From positions 1 to 39,892 of the forward strand of contig MEGM01000009.1 in NCBI GenBank assembly GCA_001725505.1: a stretch of 39,892 bases of DNA, read 5' to 3'. The DNA comes from Rubrivivax sp. SCN 70-15 (GTDB taxonomy: Bacteria > Pseudomonadota > Gammaproteobacteria > Burkholderiales > Burkholderiaceae_C). Both the position numbers and the translations under genes were made by a program. Each line of letters starts with the position of its first letter. Within the stretch, counting starts at the first letter, position 1. The notes under the pieces are model-generated. The model saw only the letters and a program-made list of their open reading frames with translations. It was not told the DNA's origin and did no database searches. Of the stretch, positions 713 through 37,686 are shown piece after piece.

Positions 713-2464
713 TCACGCAGCAGGTGCTGAGCTGATCGTGTCAGCGCCAAACCAACCTGCAAGAGTGGCGAGCGCCTGTGGCGACAACTGCTGGGTGAAC
801 AGCAGCGTGAGCCGAGTCTTGGGCCTTGAGCAGGCAACGTAGAACAAATTTCGATTGCGTTCGTACGCGGCTTCCTTTGCCGCAGGCACAGCCTGCGCGC
901 CAGCAAGTTCCAGCATCTCGCCGAAGTTGTACTGATTCCAACCGCGACCGACCACCACAAGCACATTCTCAAACTCGGCGCCTTTAACTCCATGCTTTGT
1001 CTCAAAGGGCGAATGGCCATCGAGGTATTTACGAAGTGCCTTGATCTCCGCATAGGGAACCGCTCGGAGTTTCTCGAGTTCTTCCAGAGCAGGGGGTATC
1101 TCTTCACCTGCCGCCGTGTCGAAAGCACGCAACTCGCGCTCACGTTTTTCGACGGCTTCCGGGAGTCTTGGCCGCCTCAGCGCGTGCAGGTGGTCGATGA
1201 TCTGGCCGACCGTACCGGTTTCCCGCAGTGCGATCAGCTGCGTCATGGCGGTGTTCCACAATGCCTTATCGGCATGGCTGCGTATCAACGGCGTTCCACC
1301 GCCGAGTGCTTCGAACATGGCGCCGAACTTGCGCGCCATGAATGCGTCGCACGCGGGCTCGAGTTGATCCACAAAAAATGCGATGTGTGCATGTTCCTTC
1401 TTCGTGAAGGCTTCGTTGTAGCGAAACGTGGTGGGAAGGGACGAATAGCCCTGCTCGCTCGCCAATAGCCGATGCGTCAGCATCAGAATCTTCGTGTTAT
1501 AAGAGGACAAATCCCATCCGTCTTGCTCCAGTGTGGCTTTGACACGCACAAGAGTTTCATGACCGACATCAGAAGGCAGATCACCTGCCCAATGCGCCCC
1601 CTTCTGACGCTGACCTTGCCAGGCGTTTGTATGGAACACACGAACCTGCCCGACCGCTTCGGGATCTTTGACGAACTGCTTGAGCTCCGGCCGCATGCGG
1701 TTGAGGCAGTCGACCACGATCCTGACCGACCGGAAGTTGGCTTCTTTGCCAATTTCGGTCACGGCCGCATGCTCGAGCTTGCCGCACCCGCCACCGTAAA
1801 TTTTCTGCCAGTGATCACCAAAGAAACCGAACAATGGTGCTTCGGATTGACCGAGGAAATGGGTCTTGATCGCCTCAACCCAATCGTTGTCGGTATCTTG
1901 GTATTCGTCGACCAGGATGATCGGAAAGCGGTCAGCGATCATGCGACGGAACTTCGAATGCTCCATCAACGAGATCGTCAGAGGAAGCACGTCATCATGA
2001 TGCAAAGAAGCGCGATCATCACGGACGGATCGGTATCCGAGGCTGTACTCGATGGCGCGACTCCCTAAGCTGCCACCGGCTTCCTCTATGCGATCCTTCC
2101 ACGCAGGAAGAGATTCGACCAAGGCTCGGAGCGGCTTCTGGAAGCCGCTGATAAGTGACCAACAGAAGGCATGATTGGTCTCGCAAAAAATCAGCGGACT
2201 TCGATCCGTGCGCGCGGCAATCTCATCCTTGGCGACATTGGTGAACGTGATGCACGCGATCTGCTGACTTCGCTTGGGTAGCGTTTGCCCATCGCGCGCC
2301 ATCAAGAACTGCAGGGCCTTGATCAAGGAATAGGTTTTGCCGGCACCCGCGCCCGCTTCCAGGCGAAAGCTCTTGCCGGCATCTAGACATGCATACATGG
2401 CCTCCAGGGCGCGCCGGCTGGCGGCTTCTGCGGTGGACTCGACCTCAGCCATCGACCGCTCCAT
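713..2464 (-). CDS. UvrD/Rep-like SF1 helicase (GajB-like partner of the OLD nuclease)
   Basis: Walker A EAGAGAGKT, Walker B ILVDEYQDTD, C-terminal FYVACSRPKTRLTLLF; start reassigned to MERSMAEVE (2464), overlapping the end of the upstream OLD gene. Confidence 0.85.
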   Translation of the reverse strand: MERSMAEVESTAEAASRRALEAMYACLDAGKSFRLEAGAGAGKTYSLIKALQFLMARDGQTLPKRSQQIACITFTNVAKDEIAARTDRSPLIFCETNHAFCWSLISGFQKPLRALVESLPAWKDRIEEAGGSLGSRAIEYSLGYRSVRDDRASLHHDDVLPLTISLMEHSKFRRMIADRFPIILVDEYQDTDNDWVEAIKTHFLGQSEAPLFGFFGDHWQKIYGGGCGKLEHAAVTEIGKEANFRSVRIVVDCLNRMRPELKQFVKDPEAVGQVRVFHTNAWQGQRQKGAHWAGDLPSDVGHETLVRVKATLEQDGWDLSSYNTKILMLTHRLLASEQGYSSLPTTFRYNEAFTKKEHAHIAFFVDQLEPACDAFMARKFGAMFEALGGGTPLIRSHADKALWNTAMTQLIALRETGTVGQIIDHLHALRRPRLPEAVEKRERELRAFDTAAGEEIPPALEELEKLRAVPYAEIKALRKYLDGHSPFETKHGVKGAEFENVLVVVGRGWNQYNFGEMLELAGAQAVPAAKEAAYERNRNLFYVACSRPKTRLTLLFTQQLSPQALATLAGWFGADTISSAPAA

Positions 2465-4511
2465 CTGCGGAAGCTGCGGCCGCTTCCACGGCCAGTGCCA
2501 GTACTGGGTCGGGTACAGGCGCCTCGCCGGCGGCCAGCCAGCGAACACCGCCAAGGATGTACGTCGGCGCAGTCCATCCGGTCTCCGCGATCGCATGCTT
2601 CAATGCAAATTCGGACTTCTTCAGATCATCGGCCTTGCCTCGGGCTTGCATCTCCAACTCCTGCGGCGTCTTGCCGTTCAGCCCGAACATCACCGGATTT
2701 GCAAGAATGAAAGCATCCTCGAAAGTTCTCCCGCAGGGGCCGCCCTTTGTCTCAGCGCATTGGTAGGTAATGCGGTTTCGTGAATTCACCTTCTCCGCAT
2801 CGGACTTCGCAAGGAGACCGGCAAGCGTGAAAGGGTCGTCGTGGGAGAACCACGATTTCAAGCACGCATTGCTTGAATACGTTCCCTGATGGACCGCGCA
2901 TGCCTTGCCCCCAGCCTTCTCGACTGCGTCCAGGTCAGTGACGATCAGACTTTGGAGTTCAAGGAACTGGAGCAAGTCGAAGAAGAGGTGCGCGTAGGCG
3001 CCCCCTACTTCCATCACCGTCATGTATTGGCTGGACAACTTCGGACTGTCAGGCTCGGCTGTTTCCAGTTTCTTGATGATGACCGGAAGCAACAGCCGTT
3101 CGCTCAACCCTTCTACCAGCACAGCCTTGTCGGCGAAAAAAAGATCGCAACGCGTCAGCGTCATGTACTGGTGCAGAAACTTCTTCTCGGGCTCCGATGT
3201 TCCTTTCAGGCCCTTCCGTAAATCCTTGATCCTGGTCTGGCGGACACCTGCTGGTGCGCCAGGAACGCTTGTTCCAAGGAAGTATCGGATGCTCTCGAAG
3301 CCCGCCTCATTGGCAACATGCGACGAATGGGTCGACACGACGAATTGCACTGGCCACGGCGTCTTGTCCACCGTGCTGGCGACCAACTGCTGCGCAATCT
3401 TGGCCAACTGGCGGATAAAAACTTCCTGCATCTGCGGATGCAAGTGAGCCTCAGGCTCCTCGATGAAGATCAGGTGGACACCTGGCTCGGTCGCTTCCGC
3501 CCGAAATGCTTTGTAAAACCCGGCGAGCTGCAACAGGATGAAGATCAGGTTGCGCGCTCCCAACCCGTTGTAGGACTCAGGCAAGGTGATGCCGCTGTAC
3601 CCTGCGTAACGGACCTTGGTGAAGTTGGACAACAGTTTGCGCACATCGAGGATGGTCTCCGTATGCAATTCCTGTCCACCAAGTCCGGGGTAACCGAAGC
3701 TCTGCAGGGCAGGCACCAAGCTTTTGAGTTGGCCACTGAAGTTCGTATCGATCTGCGTTTGGATATCCTGGACAGCGCTCTTCAGCGCTTCGGCGACCTG
3801 TTTGTCGGCGGCATCCGCTGCCGGCGATGAAGCCGTCGCGAACAGGCTCTCAACCGTCTTGGCAAGCACATCCGATTCACGCGACGTCACGTCATCCAAG
3901 CCGCGCTGGGCATTGATGAAGCCGGTCTTCACCAAGCCTCGCAGAGCGCCTGGTTGGAGCTGACGCCGGTTGTCAGTGTCATTGGGGTCTTCAGCCCAAA
4001 TCTTGACGCCGAAGTCGCCAGGAATTCGCTCACGCAGGGCACGAAAGAATGCGATCCGTGTTTCGTCCGTTAGCGGCGTGGTCGGTTGATCCTCAAAGAA
4101 GCGTCCGAGCTGGCCGTCTTTCAGTTCGTAGCGCACCGCAACCAGTGCTTCTGCGCAGGCGGGGTCAAGATCGATCACGAAGGGGCTCAGGGGACCAAGC
4201 TGCGGCTGCGCCGGGTCATACTGAAACTTGAGTCGAAGCTCGATGGCAGGAATGAAGGCGCGGACGGCGTCGTCTTCTGCGCCGTTGTTTCTTGCTTCAA
4301 GGGCTGCACAGAAACCGTCATAGCAGGCGCTCGAGAAGTCCTCGAGCTGAAAGGCAGCTGTGCCATCTGCCATCAATCGGCGCATCACCTCGGAGAGGGA
4401 TGTCTTGCCGCTGTTGTTTCGCCCAACGATGACGGTCGTCTGGTCTTCCAGGGCAAGCTCAACGCCGGCCAAAAGGCGAAAGTTCTTGATCTCCACATGA
4501 TGGATGCGCAT
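2445..4511 (-). CDS. OLD-family ATPase/TOPRIM endonuclease (GajA-like / class 2 OLD)
   Basis: 688 aa; N-terminal GRNNSGKTSL P-loop, LIFIEEPEAHLHP Walker B, C-terminal TOPRIM-like KAVLVEGLSERLLLP and VTDLDAVEKAG; adjacent UvrD-like helicase. Confidence 0.87.
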   Translation of the reverse strand: MRIHHVEIKNFRLLAGVELALEDQTTVIVGRNNSGKTSLSEVMRRLMADGTAAFQLEDFSSACYDGFCAALEARNNGAEDDAVRAFIPAIELRLKFQYDPAQPQLGPLSPFVIDLDPACAEALVAVRYELKDGQLGRFFEDQPTTPLTDETRIAFFRALRERIPGDFGVKIWAEDPNDTDNRRQLQPGALRGLVKTGFINAQRGLDDVTSRESDVLAKTVESLFATASSPAADAADKQVAEALKSAVQDIQTQIDTNFSGQLKSLVPALQSFGYPGLGGQELHTETILDVRKLLSNFTKVRYAGYSGITLPESYNGLGARNLIFILLQLAGFYKAFRAEATEPGVHLIFIEEPEAHLHPQMQEVFIRQLAKIAQQLVASTVDKTPWPVQFVVSTHSSHVANEAGFESIRYFLGTSVPGAPAGVRQTRIKDLRKGLKGTSEPEKKFLHQYMTLTRCDLFFADKAVLVEGLSERLLLPVIIKKLETAEPDSPKLSSQYMTVMEVGGAYAHLFFDLLQFLELQSLIVTDLDAVEKAGGKACAVHQGTYSSNACLKSWFSHDDPFTLAGLLAKSDAEKVNSRNRITYQCAETKGGPCGRTFEDAFILANPVMFGLNGKTPQELEMQARGKADDLKKSEFALKHAIAETGWTAPTYILGGVRWLAAGEAPVPDPVLALAVEAAAASADGAVDG

Positions 4512-4770: not shown

Positions 4771-5916
4771 CTACGCGGTCGCCTCTTTCGAGAACTGTGT
4801 CCGCGCCAGATTTCGCAGCGCGGGGACTTCCTTGTCGAAGACTTTCTCCATTTTTCGCACGTGATCAACGAGCCAGTCGATCATGCTCGGCCAATTCTCT
4901 CGGTTATGCCCATCGAAAGGGGCGGCGCACTCAATGAGGGAAACCTTCTTGTCATCCATGCGCCGCCAGGAGAGCGCCCCACCGAATTCAGCTTCAAGTT
5001 GCTCACGGCGCGCGCAGAGGTGGTCAAACAGCGCCTTGTTTGCTTCCTTCGACCGTGTACCGAGCGCGAAGTCCACGCGTGCTTCGTCGCGGTTGAATAT
5101 CATCGAGTAGTAGATGCCGCTCGCGCCTGAGCCGGCATTGAGCCAGTGATCCCGGCTCGGGCTCACATTGGCGTAGAGCGCCACATTTGCCGTGCGAAGT
5201 GCTTCAAGGGCCGCGTGCCAGAAGTCGGTGCGCAGTTGATGCCGGGTCGCTTGGCCGCGCTCCGACGACTGCTCTTCATCCTCTTTCTCCGAGATACCGA
5301 TCATGAGTTCTTCGGCTTCGGGTAGCGGGATGACCTGCTCCATCGTGAGGAAGAGATCGTTGCCGTCCTTGAACGGTGTCGCCCGGAAACACTTCACGAA
5401 AACGCGATGCTTGAGGAGCCACAGGACCGTAGATGTCACTTCTTTACGGAACTGCGCAGCCACCATGATGAGGCGCTGATCGTTTCCAGGATTGAGCACC
5501 ACTTCGGCAAACTCTTCCTGTCCGAGGAAGTCGCAAATGAGATTTCTCGCGTCCTTCCCCTGGCCGGATTTGTCGAGATACTTCTGGAAGATCTCTGCGA
5601 TCTGCGATTTCGACAGCGTCGAGCAATACGACGCGTATTTGAGCGCCTGCCAAACAACGTCCTTCCCGGAGTCGTCCAGCTTGTTCTCGATGATGACCAG
5701 GCTTCCGTTCTTGTCGATGGCCAGCAAATCCAGCCGCTCGCGTGTGTCGTCGAAGCCGTCGAACTCTTTCTGGATGATCAGCAGTTCCTCCCCAAGCGCA
5801 TCGGGCTGGTTTGCCAACCACTCCTGAAGATGATGCCGCTCCGTGAAACCAAGCTCCGAGAAGCTCACCTCTTTCAGCTTGATGATACGGTTCGATGCAT
5901 GGTTGATTCGGAACAT
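4771..5916 (-). CDS. DUF4268-like protein with PD-(D/E)XK-type N-terminal nuclease fold
   Basis: 381 aa; RLDLLAIDKNGSLVIIENKLDDSGKDVVWQALKYA resembles D...ExK nuclease core; C-terminal region resembles DUF4268. Confidence 0.7.
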   Translation of the reverse strand: MFRINHASNRIIKLKEVSFSELGFTERHHLQEWLANQPDALGEELLIIQKEFDGFDDTRERLDLLAIDKNGSLVIIENKLDDSGKDVVWQALKYASYCSTLSKSQIAEIFQKYLDKSGQGKDARNLICDFLGQEEFAEVVLNPGNDQRLIMVAAQFRKEVTSTVLWLLKHRVFVKCFRATPFKDGNDLFLTMEQVIPLPEAEELMIGISEKEDEEQSSERGQATRHQLRTDFWHAALEALRTANVALYANVSPSRDHWLNAGSGASGIYYSMIFNRDEARVDFALGTRSKEANKALFDHLCARREQLEAEFGGALSWRRMDDKKVSLIECAAPFDGHNRENWPSMIDWLVDHVRKMEKVFDKEVPALRNLARTQFSKEATA

Positions 5917-10403: not shown

Positions 10404-10486
10404 CGAACAGCCGGAAGGCTGGGCTCCGAATCTAGGAACCCGGTGTGCGGTTTTCTTCAACAGCCAACTTTGTCAGGAGAAAGACC

Positions 10487-11311
10487 ATGCTTGCAACCCG
10501 TTTCGCTTCCCACTCCCCGGCGCTGCGCAGCGACTACCCGCTGTCCGATGACCAGATTCGCAGGGTGGCTCCGTCCATCTTCGCGGACGCGCCGCATGAA
10601 AGCCGTTCCGAGCGATACAGCTACATCCCCACCGCCGCTGTTCTGACCGAGCTTCGCAAGGAAGGGTTTCAGCCCTTCATGGTGACGCAGACCCGCGTGC
10701 GCGATGAAGGCAAGCGCGAGCACACAAAACACATGCTGCGCCTGCGCCACGCCAGCCAGATCAACGGCGCGGAAGCCAATGAAATCGTGCTTCTGAATTC
10801 GCACGACGGCACGAGCAGCTATCAGATGCTGGCCGGAATGTTCCGTTTCGTGTGCAGCAATGGGCTGGTGTGCGGTGACACGGTGGCCGATGTGCGCGTG
10901 CCTCACAAAGGCAACGTGGCCGGGCACGTCATCGAAGGCGCATACGAGGTATTGAGCGGCTTCGAGCAGGTCAAGGAATCCCGCGACCTGATGCGCGGCA
11001 TCACCTTGGACGATGGCGAATCCGAAGTGTTCGCCCGCGCCGCGCTGGCCCTCAAGTACGACGACCCCGACAAGCCCGCGCCCATCACGGAAAGCCAAAT
11101 CCTGATGCCGCGCCGCTTCGACGACCGCCGCCCGGACTTGTGGAGCGTGTTCAACCGCACCCAAGAAAACCTGACCAAGGGCGGATTGCATGGCCGCGCC
11201 GCCAATGGTCGCAGGCAGCAGACCCGCCCCGTGCAGGGCATTGATTCCGACATTCGCCTGAACCGCGCCTTGTGGCTGCTGGCCGATGGCATGCGCGCTC
11301 TCAAAGCCTGA
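10487..11311 (+). CDS. DUF932 domain-containing protein
   Basis: Start MLATRF after AGGAGA RBS; YSYIPT...FQPFMVTQTRVRDEGKREHTKHMLRLR...NSHDGTSSYQMLAGMFRFVCSNGLV typical of DUF932. Confidence 0.88.
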   Translation: MLATRFASHSPALRSDYPLSDDQIRRVAPSIFADAPHESRSERYSYIPTAAVLTELRKEGFQPFMVTQTRVRDEGKREHTKHMLRLRHASQINGAEANEIVLLNSHDGTSSYQMLAGMFRFVCSNGLVCGDTVADVRVPHKGNVAGHVIEGAYEVLSGFEQVKESRDLMRGITLDDGESEVFARAALALKYDDPDKPAPITESQILMPRRFDDRRPDLWSVFNRTQENLTKGGLHGRAANGRRQQTRPVQGIDSDIRLNRALWLLADGMRALKA

Positions 11312-11381
11312 CCCGCTCCCCCGCCGGAGGGGACGGTTTCCCCTCCATTCCTTGTCTGTTTCATTTGATTGGAGATACACC

Positions 11382-13442
11382 ATGAACGCCGTTAACTACA
11401 CCGAGGCCCAAGCCGTCACCACCGCCGCCAATGTGCTGCAAGCCGCCGACCCGAGCAAGCACATGATTCTGGTTCCGTTGTCGCGGCTGGTGCTGCGCCC
11501 TGCGGGTCGCAACGTGCGCAAGACCCCGCGCATGTCCATCCCTGAACTGGCCGCGTCCATCCAGCGCGTGGGCCTGCTGCAAAACCTGATCGCGATTCCC
11601 GCCAGTGATGGCGAGCACTACGAGGTGGTTGCCGGTGGCCGTCGCTTCGCCGCATTGAAGCTGCTGGCGAAGAAACATCGCATCGCAAAGGATTGGGAGG
11701 TGCCTTGCCTGCGAGTGGCCGATGGCACGGCCCGCACCGCCAGCCTCACGGAAAACGTGCAGCGTGAAGCCATGCACCCGGCAGACCAGTTTGAAGCCTT
11801 TGCAGCGCTGGTGGCCGAAGGACGGCCCATTGAGGACATTGCAGCGGATTTCAGCGTTACCCCGCTGGTGGTGCAGCGCCGCTTGAAGCTCGCTAATGTT
11901 TCGCCCCGGTTGATGGCTGACTACCGGGCCGATGCGGTCACGCTCGACCAGCTCATGGCGCTGGCCGTCACCGACGATCATGCTTCGCAAGACGCCGCGT
12001 TCTACGATGCGCCGCAGTGGCAGCGCAGTCCGTCCGCGCTGCGCGAACGCCTCACCGAGCGCGAGATTGATGCTTACCGGCATCCGCTGGTGCGATTCGT
12101 CGGGCTGGACACCTACGAAGCCGCAGGCGGCGGGATTCGCCGCGATCTGTTCGCGGAAGGCGATGCGGGCGTGTACCTCAACGATGCGGCCTTGCTGGAA
12201 CGGCTGGCGCACGAGAGGCTGGCGGGCATCGCCGCCGAGGTGAAGGCCGAAGGCTGGGCATGGGTGGATGCTGCACACGCCGCCACCTATGCCGACCTGC
12301 AAGCGTTTCAACGCGCCCCGAGAGAGCGGCGCACGCCGGGCAAGCGCGAAGCCCTGCGCATCGAGAAGCTGCAAGCCAGGATGCGGGAGGTAGCCGAAGC
12401 CCTCGATGCCGCGATGGAAGCCGAGGACGAGGACAAGGCCGAAGCCTTGCAGGAGGAAGGCGAAGTCCTGGGCGAGCAATTGCAGGCGCTGGAAGATGGC
12501 TTGCAGGGGTACGCCCCGAGCGTGAAGGCCGCAGCCGGGGCCATCGTCACCATTGACCGCAACGGCGAAGCCGTGATTCATCGCGGGCTGCTGCGCGAGG
12601 CCGAGGCCAAGGCACTGCGCACGCTGGAAAGGCTGCGCCAAGGGTTCAGCGGCGAGGATGCCGAGAGCGACGACGAAGGCGACACGGCAGACGAAGCGCA
12701 AGCCCCCGCCATGTCCGACCGGTTGGCGCAGCGCTTGAGCGCGCACCGCACCGCCGCGCTGCAAATCGAAGTCGCCCGGCATCCCCAAGCCGCGCTGGCC
12801 GCTGTGGTGCATGGCATGGTGCAAACCGTCCTGCAGGGCAGCCACTACGGGCACGACCTGCCGCTGGGCGTGCGCCTCACGGTGCAAGATCGGCTGGAAG
12901 GCATGGCCCCGGACTGGCCGGAATCGCCTGCCGCCGTGGCGCTGCGCGAATTGCAGCAGGCATGGGGCGGCAAGCTGCCCGAGGGCAGCGCCGAACTGTT
13001 CGCCGCGCTGCTGGTGATGGAGCAAGGCGAACTGGTGAAGCTGCTGGCCGTGTGCGTGGCTTCCACGGTGGACGTGGTGACGCCGCGTGCCACGCCGCAC
13101 CAGCCCGGTGCGAAACTGGCGCAGGCCGTGGGCCTCGACATGGCCGCATGGTGGCAGCCGAGCGCAGAAGGCTACTTCAAGCATGTTTCCAAGTCCGTGA
13201 TTCTGGATGCCGTGGGCGCGTTTGCACCGGATTCCGTCAACCGGCTGGCGAAGCTGAAGAAGGCCGATATTGCCAGCGAAGCCGAACGGCTGGCCAATGG
13301 CACGGGCTGGATGCCCGCCATCTTCAAGGCCGAAGACACGCAGGAGGATGCACCCGAGGAAGGCCCACAGGATGCACAGCAGGACGACGCGAAAGAAACC
13401 GCCACCGTGGCGGATGAACCCGTCGAGGCATTGGCCGCTTGA
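11382..13442 (+). CDS. ParB/RepB/Spo0J-like nuclease-domain protein (ICE/plasmid type)
   Basis: ~686 aa from MNAVNYTEAQ; VPLSRLVLRPAGRNVRKTP...ELAASIQRVGLLQNLIAIPASDGEHYEVVAGGRRFAALKLL...LTENVQREAMHPADQFEAF ParB core. Confidence 0.9.
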   Translation: MNAVNYTEAQAVTTAANVLQAADPSKHMILVPLSRLVLRPAGRNVRKTPRMSIPELAASIQRVGLLQNLIAIPASDGEHYEVVAGGRRFAALKLLAKKHRIAKDWEVPCLRVADGTARTASLTENVQREAMHPADQFEAFAALVAEGRPIEDIAADFSVTPLVVQRRLKLANVSPRLMADYRADAVTLDQLMALAVTDDHASQDAAFYDAPQWQRSPSALRERLTEREIDAYRHPLVRFVGLDTYEAAGGGIRRDLFAEGDAGVYLNDAALLERLAHERLAGIAAEVKAEGWAWVDAAHAATYADLQAFQRAPRERRTPGKREALRIEKLQARMREVAEALDAAMEAEDEDKAEALQEEGEVLGEQLQALEDGLQGYAPSVKAAAGAIVTIDRNGEAVIHRGLLREAEAKALRTLERLRQGFSGEDAESDDEGDTADEAQAPAMSDRLAQRLSAHRTAALQIEVARHPQAALAAVVHGMVQTVLQGSHYGHDLPLGVRLTVQDRLEGMAPDWPESPAAVALRELQQAWGGKLPEGSAELFAALLVMEQGELVKLLAVCVASTVDVVTPRATPHQPGAKLAQAVGLDMAAWWQPSAEGYFKHVSKSVILDAVGAFAPDSVNRLAKLKKADIASEAERLANGTGWMPAIFKAEDTQEDAPEEGPQDAQQDDAKETATVADEPVEALAA

Positions 13443-13451
13443 TCTGCGCCG

Positions 13452-13489
13452 AAGGCAAGCGCCCCGGCTTCGACCGGGGCGCTTGCCTT
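13452..13489 (+). terminator. Strong stem-loop between parB-like gene and small ORF
   Basis: AAGGCAAGCGCCCCGG-CTTCGA-CCGGGGCGCTTGCCTT, 16-bp perfect stem. Confidence 0.75.
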
Positions 13490-13505
13490 TCAAGGAGAAC
13501 CGCTC

Positions 13506-13715
13506 ATGATCCGCACCACAACAACCCGCCCGCGCTTGGCGGCGATCTATGCAACTGGCACGGTGCGCGGCCGCCGCTGGCATGGCGATGGCGACGTGCG
13601 CGGCTACCGCCCGCCTTCGGGCTGGACGGCCCACGCCGACCTCACGGACATTCATCCCATCACGGGCCGCACTTTGCCGCGTGCCGTGTGGTGGCTCATC
13701 GAGACGAAGGAATAG
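13506..13715 (+). CDS. Small hypothetical protein (69 aa)
   Basis: AAGGAG RBS 8 nt upstream of ATG; TVRGRRWHGDGDVRGYRPPSGWTAHADLTDIHPITGRTLPRAVWWLIETKE. Confidence 0.65.
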   Translation: MIRTTTTRPRLAAIYATGTVRGRRWHGDGDVRGYRPPSGWTAHADLTDIHPITGRTLPRAVWWLIETKE

Positions 13716-15349: not shown

Positions 15350-16087
15350 TCAGTCGATCGCGCCGGAAAGCGCGACTTGTTTCAGCAGGTTTGCCGGGCT
15401 GCTCCCCAACATGGCCCGGAACGTCCGGCTCAGATGGGCTGAGTCGGAGAACCCGCCCAGATGGGCTGCCTCGGTGAGACTGCCTCCCGCCGCGAGCTGT
15501 CGCAGTGACTCGATCAGGCGCACCCACTTCAGGTAGCTGCGAAGGGGCAGGCCGGTCTGCTCCACGAACCAGTGTGAAAAGCGCTCCGGCGAAACATGAA
15601 CCATCGCCGCCAGGCTGCGCCTGTCGGTCTCTCCCCTGCAGGCACGAAGTTCCCGCACGACCGCTTCGAGCCGCGTGTCGGCAACACGCGGCGGGTCCGA
15701 CCGGAAGATGACTTGAACGGTCGTCAGATCGTCTGCGCTCGAGAAGTCCAGCAGCCGCCGCGCCAAGTCGGGATCGAGCGCCAGAGCGGCCTGTTGAGGC
15801 CGCAATCGCAGCGCCGTCGCCTCAGGCGCGAGGGCATCCAGGTAAATCGAGAGCACCGCGCCTCCGCTCAGCCTGTGGCGCATCCCGGCCGGAATCACCA
15901 GTGCCCGACCTCGCAGGCGACCGGCCGGGGTCTCCACCTCGACGGCCCCTTCCAGGCCCACCGTGATCTGGTGGGCAAGGTGCTGGTGCCAGTCGTGTGC
16001 GCCGACGCTTCCACGGAACACGCCTATCCCGGGGGCGATCCAAGCGCGCCCAGCCCAAGCGAGGCCGGCCGGATCGAACGGCTTCAA
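15350..16087 (-). CDS. AraC-family transcriptional regulator
   Basis: N-terminal cupin-like region; C-terminal SLAAMVHVSPERFSHWFVEQTGLPLRSYLKWVRL...AAHLGGFSDSAHLSRTFRAMLGSSPANLL double HTH. Confidence 0.88.
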   Translation of the reverse strand: MKPFDPAGLAWAGRAWIAPGIGVFRGSVGAHDWHQHLAHQITVGLEGAVEVETPAGRLRGRALVIPAGMRHRLSGGAVLSIYLDALAPEATALRLRPQQAALALDPDLARRLLDFSSADDLTTVQVIFRSDPPRVADTRLEAVVRELRACRGETDRRSLAAMVHVSPERFSHWFVEQTGLPLRSYLKWVRLIESLRQLAAGGSLTEAAHLGGFSDSAHLSRTFRAMLGSSPANLLKQVALSGAID

Positions 16088-16557
16088 TGCGCTGGCTTTG
16101 GGCTACGCGGTCCCTGCGGGGGCCGCCGGTGCCCGACCGAGTGCACCCCTTGGCCCGTGGACTTTCGGACGGTGACTTGCTTCAGGCCATCCAGGATGCC
16201 GCACTCGGCCGCCACTCCATCGCATTGCTCTCGAAGCGACTTGAGCTCTTTCTGCAATTCCCTCAGGTCGCGGATGCGCTGTGCCACGTGCTCGATGTGC
16301 TCGTCCAGGACCTCGTTGACGGCATGACAGTCCTCCCGGGGCGCGTCCTGGAAGAGCAGCAGAGCGCGGATCTCATCGAGCGTCATGTCGAGGGAGCGGC
16401 AGTGCCGGATGAAGGCGAGCCGCTCCAGGTGCTCCCTCCCGTAGAGGCGGTAGTTTCCGTCGCTGCGAGGAGGCTCCTTCAACAGGCCCTCGCGCTCGTA
16501 GAAGCGGATGGTTTCCGCCTGCGTCTGAGTTGCTTTCGCGAGTTCGCCGATCTTCAT
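16084..16557 (-). CDS. cadR: MerR-family Cd(II)/Pb(II)-responsive regulator (CadR/PbrR-like)
   Basis: MKIGELAKATQTQAETIRFYEREGLLKEPPRSDGNYRLYGREHLERLAFIRHCRSLDMTLDEIRALL...EDCHAVNEVLDEHIEH; start reset to 16557. Confidence 0.87.
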   Translation of the reverse strand: MKIGELAKATQTQAETIRFYEREGLLKEPPRSDGNYRLYGREHLERLAFIRHCRSLDMTLDEIRALLLFQDAPREDCHAVNEVLDEHIEHVAQRIRDLRELQKELKSLREQCDGVAAECGILDGLKQVTVRKSTGQGVHSVGHRRPPQGPRSPKPAH

Positions 16558-16592
16558 GGGTTGGCCCTTCCAAGCCCGAAGTGTAGCGCCGA

Positions 16593-17216: not shown

Positions 17217-17332
17217 TCCAGCTCCCGCAGTTGAATCCGTCAGCCGATGCGCCCGATCTACAGAAAGACCCGCAGCAGCCCGGGCGGCAATCGCTGAGTT
17301 GGCCGCTTACCATTGCGGCGCCATTCGGACCA

Positions 17333-17941: not shown

Positions 17942-18612
17942 GCGCCATTCAAAAGCAACTTGGCATCGTGGGCCAATGCCTCGGCTCCAGCGCCATACCG
18001 CGCATACAAACGCAGTCGGCCCCGCGGGTCATAGACGAAGCTGGCCGCCGTATGGTCCATCGTGTACGAGGTAGGCGACTGCCCCGGATTCTTGCGGATG
18101 TGGAGCTTGAATTCTTTTGCCAACTGTTGAAGCTGGCCCGGGTCTGGCCGCAACGCCACGAAGGCGGGATCGAAATTGGCCATGTAGGTCTTTAGCACCG
18201 GGAAGGTATCGCGCTCCGGGTCAACGGTCACGAAGATTGCCTTCAGCTTGGCCCCGTCCGAGCCCATCAGCTTCCTGGCCTGCACAACTTCGGTCAATGT
18301 GGTCGGGCAGACGTCCGGGCACTGCGTGAAGCCGAAGAACACGACGGCAACTTCGCCGTTGAAGTCCTTGAGGCTGCGTGTCACGCCATTGTGATCGGGC
18401 AAAAGGAAGTCGCCCGCATAACCAGCGCCGGTGATGTCGATCAGCTTGAATGGGCTGGCAGTGGGATAGGACCTGGACTGCACAAGAAATACGGTCGGCG
18501 CGGCAAGCAGCATGAAGATCCCGAACACCAGCGCGAGGCGCCGGCGCTCCACCTTGGCGTCCTGCGGCCCGCTCGACATCCGGCGAAGTTTGCGAGCACT
18601 GGATTTGCTCAT
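17938..18612 (-). CDS. SCO1/SenC-family protein
   Basis: FFGFTQCPDVCPTTLTEV; TVDPERDT; SYTMDHTAASFVYDPRGRLRLYARYG; start 18612 overlaps the lspA stop. Confidence 0.92.
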   Translation of the reverse strand: MSKSSARKLRRMSSGPQDAKVERRRLALVFGIFMLLAAPTVFLVQSRSYPTASPFKLIDITGAGYAGDFLLPDHNGVTRSLKDFNGEVAVVFFGFTQCPDVCPTTLTEVVQARKLMGSDGAKLKAIFVTVDPERDTFPVLKTYMANFDPAFVALRPDPGQLQQLAKEFKLHIRKNPGQSPTSYTMDHTAASFVYDPRGRLRLYARYGAGAEALAHDAKLLLNGA

Positions 18613-19106
18613 GCCTTCTCTCGAGTTTGCGGTTGCCTCGCCCCGGCAAAGGACGCCAGCACCAAGCAAGCCGCGCCCACGGTGATGGCGATGTCTGCCA
18701 CATTGAACGCCGGCCAGTGCCAGCCGGCGAAGTGAAAATCCAGGTAGTCGATGACATGGCCGCGCAGGGCACGATCGAAGGCGTTTCCCAGCGCGCCTCC
18801 CAGGATCAGACTGAAGGCCAGCGATTCGCTGCGTGGCCGAGGTTGCCGCAACATCCAGATCAACCAGACGGAAGCCACGACCGCGATGGCCAGAAAGAAC
18901 CAGCGCTGCCACCCGCCGGCGCCGGCAAGGAAACTGAAGGCAGCGCCCGGGTTCAGCACATGGACCAGGTTGAAAAAGGACGTGACCGGATGGGACCAGC
19001 CCAGGGGCGTGATGGCGTCGATGGTGCTTTTGGCGGCCTGGTCGGCGGCGAAGACGGCGAAGGCGAGCGAGAACCAGGGAGCTTGTCGATGTGGATGCAT
19101 GTTCAT
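18609..19106 (-). CDS. lspA: Signal peptidase II (LspA/PbrC-like)
   Basis: AADQAAK, NPGAAFSFL, LGGALGNAFDRALRGHVIDYLDFHFAGWHWPAFNVADIAITVGA. Confidence 0.93.
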   Translation of the reverse strand: MNMHPHRQAPWFSLAFAVFAADQAAKSTIDAITPLGWSHPVTSFFNLVHVLNPGAAFSFLAGAGGWQRWFFLAIAVVASVWLIWMLRQPRPRSESLAFSLILGGALGNAFDRALRGHVIDYLDFHFAGWHWPAFNVADIAITVGAACLVLASFAGARQPQTREKA

Positions 19107-20416
19107 TTAGTGGGAATGGGGTCCGTGGGCGTTTCGGGCTCCGGTTCGGGCGGCGCTTTCAACGCGTCCTCGACTTGTTTGTCGGTCAGCGTGGCCGCCG
19201 GTGGTGGCGTGCTGGCAATCCCAGGGAACGCCACCAGGATGCCCCCATTGCCATCTGCAGCACCAGGAAAGGGATGGCGCCGAGGTAAATTTCGGACGTG
19301 CGAACCGACGGGGGTGCCACGCTGCGCAGGTTGTACAGCGCGATGCCGAAGGGCGGGTGCATGAAAGAGGTTTGCAGCACCACCGCCACGATGACGGTGA
19401 ACCAGACCATGTCGATGCCGAGCTTGCGGGCCACCGGCGCGATCAGGGGCACGACGATGAAAGCGATCTCGAAGAAGTCGAGGAAGAATCCGAGCAGGAA
19501 GATGCCGATGCACACGAACAGCAAGAATGGCAGCTGTCCCTGCGGCAGGTGGCCGAAGAGTTGTTCGATCCAGGCCTGCCCGTTGAAACCGCGAAACACG
19601 AGCATGAAGAAGGAGGCACCCAGCAGCAGGAAAATCACGCTGGAGCACAGAACACCTGCGTTGGTGAGCGCTTCGGCCAGCCGCTGGCGGCTCAGGCGGC
19701 GCTTTGCCAGCCCGATCAGCAACGCGGCGCAGACGCCCACCGCACCGCCTTCGGTCGGGGTGGCGACGCCGAAAAAGATCGACGCCAGGACGGCCAGGAT
19801 GAGCGCCAACGGCACGCCAGCCGCCACAGCGGCCTCCTTCCATGCGCTCACGGATGCGCTGGCGGCTTCCATCAAGGGCGGCGCCAGACCGGGGCGCCAT
19901 CGGGTTGCCGCGACGACGTACACCAGGTACAGCCCGACCAGCATCGCGCTGGGCAGCAGGGCTGCGTGGAATATCTCCACCAGCGGTACCTCCATCTGCT
20001 CGGCCAGCACGATGAGCACCAGGCTGGGCGGCAGCATCTGCGCCAGCGTGCCGGCGGCCGCGATCGAGCCGGTGGCAAGCTTGGGGTCATAACCCGCCTT
20101 GAGCATCGTCGGCAGCGCGATCAGGCCCATGGCGATGACCGAGGCCGACACGAACCCAGTGATGGCGGACAGCATCGAGCCCACGATCAGGGTGGCCACC
20201 AGCAAGCCGCCGGGCTGCTTGCGGAACAGGCGGCCGAGGGCCAGGAGGGTGCACGTCGTACATGCTCGAAGATGCGACGCCCAACAGCTTGCGGCTGAAC
20301 GCATTGCCGGCGATGAGGACGGCATTGGCCAGCAGGCCCCAGCGCACCACGAACGCCATCTGGCGATTGACGGAGTCGATGCGGCCAGCAAGGCGCAGGG
20401 CTGCGGCGAACGTCAT
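19103..20416 (-). pseudogene. Degraded TRAP transporter: DctQ N-terminus fused to internal DctM, plus 3' frameshift
   Basis: DctQ-like MTFAAALRLAGRIDSVNRQMAFVVRWGLLANAVLIAGNAFSRKLLGVASSSMYDV (from 20416) runs out of frame into DctM-like LFRKQPGGLLVATLIVGSMLSAITG...; frame shifts again at a C5/G5 tract (19242-19246) to GILVAFPGIAST...PIPTK*. Confidence 0.82.
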
Positions 20417-21021
20417 CGCGTGGCCCGCCACTCGTCAGCGGCGCGCTTCAACGACACGGCCCATCCATAGGTCGCTACAACGCAAGCGCCGCCAAGCAGG
20501 AAGCCGGCAACAACATCCGCCGGGAAATGCGCCCCCAGTGCCACGCGGGACCAGCCGACGGCTGCCGCGAGTGCGAGCAGAAGCAGTCGGAACGGCCAGG
20601 AACCGAGCGGCCAGAGGCAGGCGACGACGGCTGCCGTGTAAACAGCATGGCCGCTCGGAAACGCATAAAGGCTGTCCGGTTCGCCAAGCACCCAAGCCAT
20701 ATCGTTCGCGTAGAGGTCCGACGGGCGCGAAAGCGCAAGCCCAACTTTTGCCGTCCAGGCCAGGAGCATGGCGACCAGGACGCCGATCCCAAAGCGGAAC
20801 GGTGCCAGCGCAGCAGGTTCGGAACGCTTCACGGCCTGCCAGGCCAGCAGAAGCAGGCCCATGACTGGCGCCCCCCAATAGCTGCCGATCGCGGACAGAG
20901 CACGAGCCAAGCCGATCCAGTCCGTCGACATGGATCGGTTGATCCACAGCATCAGTTGGGTGTTGAGGCCGCCCCAGTCGTACACCCAGTGCCGCAGTAG
21001 TCCCATGTCGCCAGCGCCCAT
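20413..21021 (-). CDS. PAP2-family phosphatase (PbrB-like undecaprenyl-pyrophosphate phosphatase)
   Basis: KVGLALSRPS, YAFPSGHAVYTAAV, GWSRVALGAHFPADVVAGFLLG (three PAP2 motifs). Confidence 0.88.
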   Translation of the reverse strand: MGAGDMGLLRHWVYDWGGLNTQLMLWINRSMSTDWIGLARALSAIGSYWGAPVMGLLLLAWQAVKRSEPAALAPFRFGIGVLVAMLLAWTAKVGLALSRPSDLYANDMAWVLGEPDSLYAFPSGHAVYTAAVVACLWPLGSWPFRLLLLALAAAVGWSRVALGAHFPADVVAGFLLGGACVVATYGWAVSLKRAADEWRATR

Positions 21022-21026
21022 ATGGG

Positions 21027-23180
21027 TCACGCGTCGCGCGTTTTCAGCAGCCGCAGGCCGTTGAACACCACCAGCAGGCTCGCTCCCATGTCCGCGAACA
21101 CTGCCATCCAAAGGGTCGCCGTGCCCGTCAATGCCAGCACCAGGAAGACGGCCTTGATGCCCAGCGCCAGCACGATGTTCTGCTTCAGGATGGCTCCCGT
21201 CTTGCGGCTAAGCCGGATGAACTGCGGGATTTTGCGCAGGTCGTCGTCCATCAGCGCCACATCGGCCGTCTCGATCGCGGTGTCGGTGCCCGCCGCTCCC
21301 ATCGCGAAGCCGATGCTGGACTTGGCCAACGCCGGCGCGTCGTTGATGCCATCGCCGACCATGCCCACAGTGCCATGCGCTGCAAGCTCGGCGTCGATGG
21401 CCGTGAGCTTGTCTTGCGGCAGCAGTCCGCCGCGCGCGTCGTCGATGCCCACGTCGCGGGCGATCACGCTGGCCGTCTGCTGGTTATCGCCGGTCAGCAT
21501 GACCGTGCGCACGCCCAGGGCGTGCAGTTCGCGGATCGCCTCCCGGCTGGAGTCGCGGACGGTGTCCGCCACCCCGATGACCGCCAAAGCCTCGTTTTGG
21601 CTGGCTATGGCGATGGCGGTCTTGCCCTCCCCCTCGAGCTTCTTCAGCGCGGCTTCGGCGGGCGCGCTGCCGATCCCCAGTTCCTGCAGCAGCCTGTGGC
21701 TGCCGAGGTAGTACCACTGCCCGCCTACGCGGCCCTTGACCCCCCGTCCGGTGAGCGACTCGAAATCGTCTGCTTCACCGAGCGCCTGACCATGCTTTTC
21801 GCGCCAGTAGGTGGCGACAGCGCCCGAGACAGGATGGTCGGAGCGCGCGGCCAGGCTGGCCGCTAGGCGCAATGCATGGTTCTCACCGGACCCGAGGGTC
21901 ACGACGTCGGTGACGACCGGCTTGCCCTGCGTGATCGTTCCCGTCTTGTCCAGCGCGAGCGACTTGAGCAGGCGGCCCTGTTCCAGGTACGCGCCCCCCT
22001 TGATCAGGATTCCTCGCCGCGCCGCCGCGGCCAGGCCGCTCACCACCGTCACCGGCGTGGAGATGACCAAGGCGCAGGGACAGGCGATGACCAGGAGCAC
22101 CAGCGCCTTATAGATCCAGTCCATCCAGGCGCCACCGAGGAAAAGGGGCGGCACCAGCATGACGGCCAAGGCCACCGCAAAGACCGCGGGGGTATACACC
22201 TTGGAGAACTGGTCGATGAAGCGCTGGGTGGGCGCGCGGCTTCCCTGGGCCTCTTCGACCGCCTTGATGATGCGCGCGAGCGTGGAGTGCGTGGCCTCGG
22301 CCGTCACGCGATAGACGAAGGAGCCGGTCTCGTTGATCGTTCCGGCGAATACCGTATCGCCAGCGGCTTTGGCCACCGGGATACTCTCGCCCGTGATGGG
22401 CGCCTGGTTGACCGCCGACTGGCCGCTTTCCAGGATGCCGTCCAGCGGGATGCGCTCTCCCGGCCGGATGCGAACGAGCTGCCCCACGGCCACTGTTTTG
22501 GCGGGCACCTCCAGCCAGCTGCCATCGGGTTGCTGCACGGTGGCCTGCTCCGGCGCCATCGCCAGCAGACCCCGGATCGCATTGCGGGCCCGGTCCAGCG
22601 ACAGCACCTCGATCACCTCGGCCAGTGCGAACAGGAACATCACCATCGCCGCTTCGGGCCACTGGCCGATGAGGATCGCACCGGTCACCGCAATGGACAT
22701 CAGCGCGTTGATGTTGAGGATGCCGCTCCTGAGCGCGAGCCAGCCCTTCTTGTAGGTGGGCCAGCCGCCGGTGGCGATGGACACCAGCGCGAGGCCGATC
22801 ACCGGCCAGGCGGAATCATTCCCCGTGCTGAACGCGACGGCTTCGGCCACGCCGGCGCTCACCCCGGCCACGGCCATCAAGCCCCACTGCCGCTTGCTCA
22901 CGGAGGGTCTGGCGGATTCCTCGATGTTGGCGTCGCCTGCATCCGGCACGGCCTTCATGCCGATCGAATGCAAGGCGGACTCCAGGTCGGCGGCCAGAAC
23001 CGTGTGCGACACCGTCAGCTTGCGCTGCATCAGGTTGAAGTCCAGGGACTGGACCCCCGGCATGTGCTGCAGCTTGTCGCGGATCAGGCCTTCTTCCGTC
23101 GGGCAGTCCATGTTCTCGATCCGGTAGACGCTGCGCTGCGCACCGCCGGGGACGGATGCTACTGCCTCCGCCGGCGGCAA
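21027..23180 (-). CDS. Heavy-metal P1B-type ATPase (Zn/Cd/Pb; CadA/ZntA/PbrA-like), C-terminal ORF after frameshift
   Basis: ACPCALVISTPV, DKTGTITQGKP, TGESIPV, MVGDGINDAPALA; track start is a TTG inside a sequence continuous with the upstream ORF. Confidence 0.93.
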   Translation of the reverse strand: MPPAEAVASVPGGAQRSVYRIENMDCPTEEGLIRDKLQHMPGVQSLDFNLMQRKLTVSHTVLAADLESALHSIGMKAVPDAGDANIEESARPSVSKRQWGLMAVAGVSAGVAEAVAFSTGNDSAWPVIGLALVSIATGGWPTYKKGWLALRSGILNINALMSIAVTGAILIGQWPEAAMVMFLFALAEVIEVLSLDRARNAIRGLLAMAPEQATVQQPDGSWLEVPAKTVAVGQLVRIRPGERIPLDGILESGQSAVNQAPITGESIPVAKAAGDTVFAGTINETGSFVYRVTAEATHSTLARIIKAVEEAQGSRAPTQRFIDQFSKVYTPAVFAVALAVMLVPPLFLGGAWMDWIYKALVLLVIACPCALVISTPVTVVSGLAAAARRGILIKGGAYLEQGRLLKSLALDKTGTITQGKPVVTDVVTLGSGENHALRLAASLAARSDHPVSGAVATYWREKHGQALGEADDFESLTGRGVKGRVGGQWYYLGSHRLLQELGIGSAPAEAALKKLEGEGKTAIAIASQNEALAVIGVADTVRDSSREAIRELHALGVRTVMLTGDNQQTASVIARDVGIDDARGGLLPQDKLTAIDAELAAHGTVGMVGDGINDAPALAKSSIGFAMGAAGTDTAIETADVALMDDDLRKIPQFIRLSRKTGAILKQNIVLALGIKAVFLVLALTGTATLWMAVFADMGASLLVVFNGLRLLKTRDA

Positions 23181-24088
23181 GTCGACGGCCAGGTGTGCTG
23201 CACGGTCAGCTTTCGCTGCATCAAATTGAAATCGAGGCCGTCGATCCCGTCGAGCGAACCCAGCCGCTTGCGGATCAGGCCCTCTTCCGTGGGGCAGTCC
23301 ATCTTTTCGATGCGGAACGTGTCGGTGCGCAAAGTCGCAGCTGCGGTCCCACCGGGCGTTGCCGCCGGTAGCTGCGCGTCCGCCGGCGGCATGCCAATCT
23401 CCGTCAGGGCCCGGACAACTGCGGCCGTGTCCGGCAGCCGGTGGACGACGGTCAGTCGGCGCTGCGGCAGGTCGAATTCCAGTTCCTCGATGCCGGCCAT
23501 GCCTTGCAAGCGCTCGCGCACCTGCCGCTCCTCATTGCGGCAATCCATCTTCGGCACATGGAAGGTGGATCGGATCGGCAGTTCAACTGCCTGGCGCGGC
23601 GTCGCGGGCATGCCCAGGGCTGCGAGCGCATCGATGACCGCAACCGAATCGGGCAAGCGGTGCTCGACCGTTAGGACACGCTGCGCGAGGTCGAAGTGCA
23701 AGTCCTCGACGCCGGCGATCTGTCCGAGGCGCGCGCGGATCTGCGCGACTTCGTTCTTGCAGTCCATGCGCGGAACGTGGAAAGCTTCGGTGCGCGTTTC
23801 TTCTTGCCGCCCGGGCAGTCCGAGCTCGACGAGCGCCGCGGTCACGGGTGACATGTCGTCGAGCCGGTGCGTCACGGTCAGTCGATGCTGCTGCAGGTCG
23901 AACCCGAGTGCCTCGACCCCCGCAATCTGGCCCACGCGCTGCCGGATCTGGCGCTCTTCGCTCGGGCAATCCATCTTCTCGATGTAGAAGACGGTGTCGG
24001 TCGCTGGCCGTCCCGCGCCCACCAGGGGCTCGTTGGCCAGTGATTCACATGCGGCGGTACCGCACGATTTTGTGCTGCTGGAATCCAT
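23159..24088 (-). CDS. N-terminal metal-binding region of the P-type ATPase, four HMA-like domains, split off by a frameshift
   Basis: Four repeats at KMDCPSEERQ, RMDCKNEVAQ, KMDCRNEERQ, KMDCPTEEGL; start reassigned to MDSSSTKSC because ATG 24121 overlaps the -10 box. Confidence 0.82.
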   Translation of the reverse strand: MDSSSTKSCGTAACESLANEPLVGAGRPATDTVFYIEKMDCPSEERQIRQRVGQIAGVEALGFDLQQHRLTVTHRLDDMSPVTAALVELGLPGRQEETRTEAFHVPRMDCKNEVAQIRARLGQIAGVEDLHFDLAQRVLTVEHRLPDSVAVIDALAALGMPATPRQAVELPIRSTFHVPKMDCRNEERQVRERLQGMAGIEELEFDLPQRRLTVVHRLPDTAAVVRALTEIGMPPADAQLPAATPGGTAAATLRTDTFRIEKMDCPTEEGLIRKRLGSLDGIDGLDFNLMQRKLTVQHTWPSTCRRRRQ

Positions 24089-24119
24089 CGCTTGACTCTC
24101 CACTTTTCTAGATGAGGGC

Positions 24120-24150
24120 ACGATACACCTTATAGTCGCTTCAGGGTCAA
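24120..24150 (-). promoter_or_regulatory. MerR-type promoter of the P-type ATPase operon
   Basis: Minus strand TTGACC-CTGAAGCGACTATAAGGTG-TATCGT, 19-bp spacer; dyad ACCCTGAA-GCGAC-TATAAGGT. Confidence 0.82.

Positions 24151-35988: not shown

Positions 35989-37686
<1,698 letters not shown>

Follow-up and report, generated by a model that had tools for sequence, protein, structure and literature searches.

A P1B-2-type metal efflux ATPase gene with five single-Cys MBDs, very probably interrupted by a recent 34-bp deletion, in Rubrivivax sp. SCN 70-15

In the window, i.e., the whole stretch of 39,892 nt analysed here, the minus-strand locus 21027-24088 is a probably metal-induced efflux ATPase gene with five MBDs and of the P1B-2 type (Zn/Cd/Pb, PbrA/ZntA/CadA-like), very probably interrupted not long ago inside its fourth HMA domain, where a 34-bp deletion private to this lineage goes with a linked T-to-G substitution. 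Several elements of this explanation can be read directly from the comparisons, namely the deletion, the change of frame, the intact copies found elsewhere and the purifying selection to which each of their HMA domains is subject. The event itself is most likely a recent loss-of-function or gene-fission mutation.

Organisation of the split gene and the missing segment

The locus comprises two ORFs read in different frames and overlapping by 22 nt, the first of which starts at ATG 24088 and stops at TAG 23161-23159. The HMA domains were called with Pfam PF00403, all five being above the Pfam cut-off; each bears an MDCxxE motif and none a CxxC motif. The features are:

24096..24101, minus strand: Shine-Dalgarno-like GGAGAG, 7 nt before ATG 24088 (from sequence)
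23159..24088, minus strand: ORF1, 309 aa, HMA1-HMA3 and a truncated HMA4, C-terminus WPSTCRRRRQ-stop
23846..23992, minus strand: HMA1 (PF00403), MDCPSEE
23627..23782, minus strand: HMA2 (PF00403), MDCKNEV
23393..23566, minus strand: HMA3 (PF00403), MDCRNEE
23186..23320, minus strand: HMA4 (PF00403), MDCPTEE, matching profile positions 1-45 of 62 only
23236..23244, minus strand: inverted repeat arm 1, TCGACGGCC; arm 2, GGCCGTCGA, at 23190-23182
23190, minus strand: T-to-G relative to the closest homologue (L039), 10 nt upstream of the junction
23180..23181, minus strand: deletion junction, 34 bp missing
21027..23180, minus strand: ORF2, 717 aa from a TTG, HMA5 and a complete P1B-2-type ATPase
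22959..23129, minus strand: HMA5 (PF00403), MDCPTEE

The earlier note on this DNA had the coordinates of the split gene right, as well as the distribution of four HMA domains in ORF1 and a fifth with the ATPase in ORF2, and the MDCxxE motif in all of them. The TTG at 23180, which it had placed inside a continuous sequence, is indeed a Leu codon inside the frame of the intact gene, the first to follow the deletion; no Shine-Dalgarno sequence was found before it.

The single nucleotide that was then thought to be missing gives way to a larger loss. The HMA4 match stops at profile position 45 out of 62, a first sign of a loss larger than one base, and alignment with L039 and all other five-domain homologues reveals 34 consecutive nucleotides absent from the window. 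L039, the closest locus (contig CALMCS010000507.1 of a Comamonadaceae MAG, G061), encodes five MDC motifs in a single open frame of 1066 codons; over 4361 aligned bp, it differs from the window by four mismatches and one 34-base gap in the window, and over ORF1 and ORF2 only by the 34 bp and one base. Since 34 equals 33 + 1, the effect on the frame is that of one missing base, which accounts for the earlier inference. The corrected reading then put forward, QHTLAVDLPPAEA, is not a real one, as the intact protein reads QHTLPSTETIVTALKDIGLPPAEA at the break site, and a sequencing error dropping a C is not supported since 34 bp are missing. HMA4 is truncated because of this loss, and adding a single C would bring back the frame yet leave the domain incomplete. 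More generally, a 3n+1 deletion can mimic a dropped base in a single sequence, a question that a near-identical homologue settles.

Regarding the mutational origin, microhomology at the junction amounts to 1 nt only. Slippage between CTTGCCG direct repeats, which flank the region, was rejected as it would remove 45 bp rather than 34 and produce another junction. In L039, one nucleotide separates the deleted segment from the end of an 8-nt inverted repeat (TCGACGGC/GCCGTCGA), and the T-to-G at 23190 lengthens the match between the arms from 8 to 9 nt. Template switching at quasi-palindromes, a process known from E. coli (PMC7202029), increases the likeness of their arms; a template switch at this short quasi-palindrome may have generated the mutation, with the arms matching further after the T-to-G and the deletion beginning 1 nt past arm 2. 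Such an origin, proposed post hoc, stays a suggestion because ~2.5% of positions in relatives have an 8-nt inverted-repeat arm no more than 2 nt away and DNA folding at the deletion is no better than in shuffled sequence (z = 0.15). The junction sequence was not found in viral contigs, nor was a second intact copy of the pump elsewhere in the source genome.

Intact homologues and variation in domain number

Scanning 84,980 species genomes with ORF1 yielded 64 homologous loci, including twelve with five domains (L039-L049 and L078, from Comamonadaceae and other Burkholderiales). The 34 bp are retained in 12 out of 12, so that the search for intact five-MBD homologues suggested in the earlier note returned single ORFs throughout; L039-L044 share 79-100% identity with ORF1, and the same-genus genomes compared gave distant matches only. 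The MBD array and the ATPase are separate genes at none of the 64 loci, and with this falls the possibility, also considered earlier, that homologues would consistently encode the two parts apart. Broken frames were encountered at two loci, namely L082 (frameshift in the membrane region) and L086 (run of N in the scaffold), neither of which qualifies as a natural split homologue, the one being frameshifted elsewhere and the other containing an N gap.

For L039 against L040-L044, dN/dS ranges from 0.04 to 0.23 per HMA domain, for all five domains, and from 0.05 to 0.09 for the ATPase; judging from these values in each HMA domain, the whole array is under purifying selection where the gene is intact. 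The five single-Cys MBDs, previously regarded as unusual, are real, but they are hardly exceptional with five in 12 of the 64 loci and four in ~27 more. The number of MDCxxE domains per homologue is one, two, four or five, and the final two almost invariably read MDCPTEE; one-MBD homologues occur naturally (e.g., L093-L096). Across the loci compared, this mostly betaproteobacterial family thus carries MDCxxE arrays regularly, and the four- and five-MBD forms are ordinary members of it. None of the papers retrieved describes the role of such single-Cys MDCxxE arrays. The intact four- and five-MBD pumps of Zn/Cd/Pb type, recurrent in Burkholderiales, are a more interesting object than the broken allele, and the latter, as a natural truncation, could help to test the function of the array.

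Alternative readings of the interruption

The frameshift of copA uses a slippery site, and in ORF1 neither an in-frame X_XXY_YYZ heptamer nor CCCAAAG was found. Programmed -1 ribosomal frameshifting, by which a free four-HMA protein would be released besides the full pump, had been proposed on the model of E. coli copA, a precedent that has been reviewed (PMC5009743, PMC9548414), and the overlapping frames of ORF1 and ORF2 do have the correct -1 relation. Besides the want of a heptamer, however, the frame break is restricted to the window and absent from every homologue, including the near-identical L039, and the frameshift product would still have HMA4 minus ~11 residues. On this evidence, programmed frameshifting is rejected for the window gene, its probability being close to nil.

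Recent inactivation, also listed among the earlier options, is on the contrary supported, the 34-bp deletion being private and the gene otherwise near-identical to the intact L039. Transcription from the MerR-type promoter would still yield a soluble protein of ~34 kDa in which three HMA domains are whole and one is truncated. The ATPase half, if made at all, would depend solely on weak re-initiation, either at TTG 23180 or at a later ATG, giving a one-MBD pump. Loss of function is not proved, since ORF2 is without further damage, and a one-MBD pump made from it would resemble the natural one-MBD homologues, which counts against such a loss. A functional fission, in which coupled re-initiation at TTG 23180 would provide a free HMA-array metal buffer and a one-MBD pump, both in use, can draw on the 22-nt overlap, on the presence of both HMA5 and a complete ATPase in ORF2 and on the existence of one-MBD relatives; it has to contend with a TTG devoid of Shine-Dalgarno sequence, an HMA4 that remains truncated and an arrangement seen in no homologue, and we regard it as improbable. 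That a fission is in progress, the freed soluble MDCxxE array serving as a cytoplasmic Zn/Cd/Pb buffer and coupled re-initiation producing a working one-MBD pump, is a highly improbable scenario.

Within the part compared, the window has three clear frame-breaking lesions of its own, namely the 34-bp deletion in the pump and two in a neighbouring gene:

19186..20431, minus strand: TRAP transporter dctQM pseudogene, with ~650 bp deleted at 20247-20251 and 1 nt at 19244 (both private)

The ~650 bp missing correspond to the segment joining dctQ and dctM, and both lesions are absent from four intact relatives; clustered local gene decay is the simplest reading of the three. Their concentration within 4 kb is also what an assembly artefact or a strain mixture might leave, i.e., a mostly intact population whose consensus collapsed or picked a rare variant; such a reading also draws on the state of the source assembly (G000), which is fragmented (267 contigs, 90% complete) and probably a MAG. 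The window contig (G000:C9) was further compared with three contigs of G061 (C507, C165 and C468; together ~12.7 kb), the metal/thiol island being 99-100% identical between the two. For the other stretch compared, 20 kb of G000:C1, identity to this different MAG is ~81% at the best match, which implies a recent transfer of the island or mis-binning in one MAG and leaves unsupported the idea that the MAG of L039 belongs to the same species as the source; the source assembly yielded no 16S rRNA. Against an artefact, the ~12.7 kb common to the window and G061 show no other indel, and a 34-bp deletion with 1-nt microhomology and a linked substitution would be an unusual assembler error because the joining requires junction-spanning reads. 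An artefact or mixture is thus considered unlikely, and the recent private deletion is the preferred reading.

Pump family, genomic surroundings and known systems

ORF2 carries complete E1-E2 ATPase (PF00122) and HAD (PF00702) domains, CPC and DKTGT, as expected of a P1B-type heavy-metal ATPase, together with TGES, HP, GDGINDAP and K...DMG in the last helices; the stretch LGIKAVFL...FADMGASL holds the P1B-2 signature K...DxG of these helices. It scores 596.7 bits with the general heavy-metal model TIGR01525 (cut-off 346.25) and 498.8 bits with the cadmium family TIGR01512 (cut-off 313.5), consistent with the P1B-2 subgroup, but the Cu model TIGR01511 just passes as well (407.8 against 397), so that the models do not settle the substrate. 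Both ZntA equivalog models remain below cut-off (NF033775, 539.7 against 1240; NF008262, 607.7 against 1005), and the best solved-structure match is the zinc-transporting ATPase PDB 4umv. As P1B-2 pumps of C. metallidurans transport Zn and Cd with similar kinetics (PMC12632275), the metal is not nameable from sequence. The surroundings of the pump gene include:

24120..24150, minus strand: candidate MerR/PbrR-type promoter, TTGACC (-35), 19-bp spacer with dyad, TATCGT (-10) (from sequence)
20413..21021, minus strand: PAP2 phosphatase, pbrB-like (PF01569)
18609..19106, minus strand: signal peptidase II (lspA), pbrC-like (PF01252 and TIGR00077)
~16087..16560, minus strand: MerR-family regulator (PF13411 and PF09278), 5' end estimated from domain position

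The promoter pattern with its 19-bp spacer lies upstream of 8 of the 11 five-domain homologues L039-L049, and the PbrR-controlled pbrA promoter has a 19-bp spacer too (PMC3431237). The locus combines a pbrA-like gene, pbrB- (PAP2) and pbrC-like (LspA) genes downstream of it and a candidate pbr-type promoter, and the MerR-family gene is a possible PbrR-type regulator of the cluster.

Elsewhere in the window, the MAPEG and redoxin genes enclose ~113 nt (17217-17329) that are absent from two relatives (G063 and G064), and a MerA mercury(II) reductase with an N-terminal HMA domain is encoded at 35989-37674 (minus strand), the contig having many thiol-redox genes (DsbA, DsbB, DsbD, redoxins, SCO1, CcsB). 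At 713-4511 (minus strand) lies a Gabija-type defence pair, with PADLOC scores of 885.7 bits for the GajB helicase and 955.1 bits for GajA, adjoined by a PDC-S11 candidate defence gene at 4771-5916. Two overlapping ORFs of 308 and 764 aa at 10457-13655 (minus strand) have no Pfam, NCBIfam or PADLOC match; similar DNA occurs on contigs C29, C76 and C108 of the same genome (87, 76 and 66%) and in another family (79%).

Among the closest known systems are the five-MBD homologues L039-L049 and L078, in which the MBDs come in the same order with similar motifs, whereas their ORF is uninterrupted and keeps the 34 bp in HMA4. With the P1B-2 pumps PbrA, ZntA and CadA (Cupriavidus metallidurans; ZntA 4umv), the window pump shares the ATPase core and N-terminal HMA domain(s), and with PbrA also the MerR-type promoter with 19-bp spacer and the PAP2 and LspA neighbours of pbrABC. 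It departs from them in that its intact relatives have five single-Cys MDCxxE MBDs, its scores fall short of the ZntA-specific NCBIfam cut-offs, the gene is split by a deletion and the cluster holds a broken TRAP gene, which sits between B and C; the nearest MerR gene is ~7.5 kb from the promoter instead of divergent beside pbrA. E. coli copA/CopA(Z) is likewise a P1B ATPase gene in which a frame change may be preceded by a separately made MBD product, but it encodes a Cu(I) pump with a demonstrated frameshift, whereas the window gene owes its frame change to a lineage-private deletion and has no slippery site.
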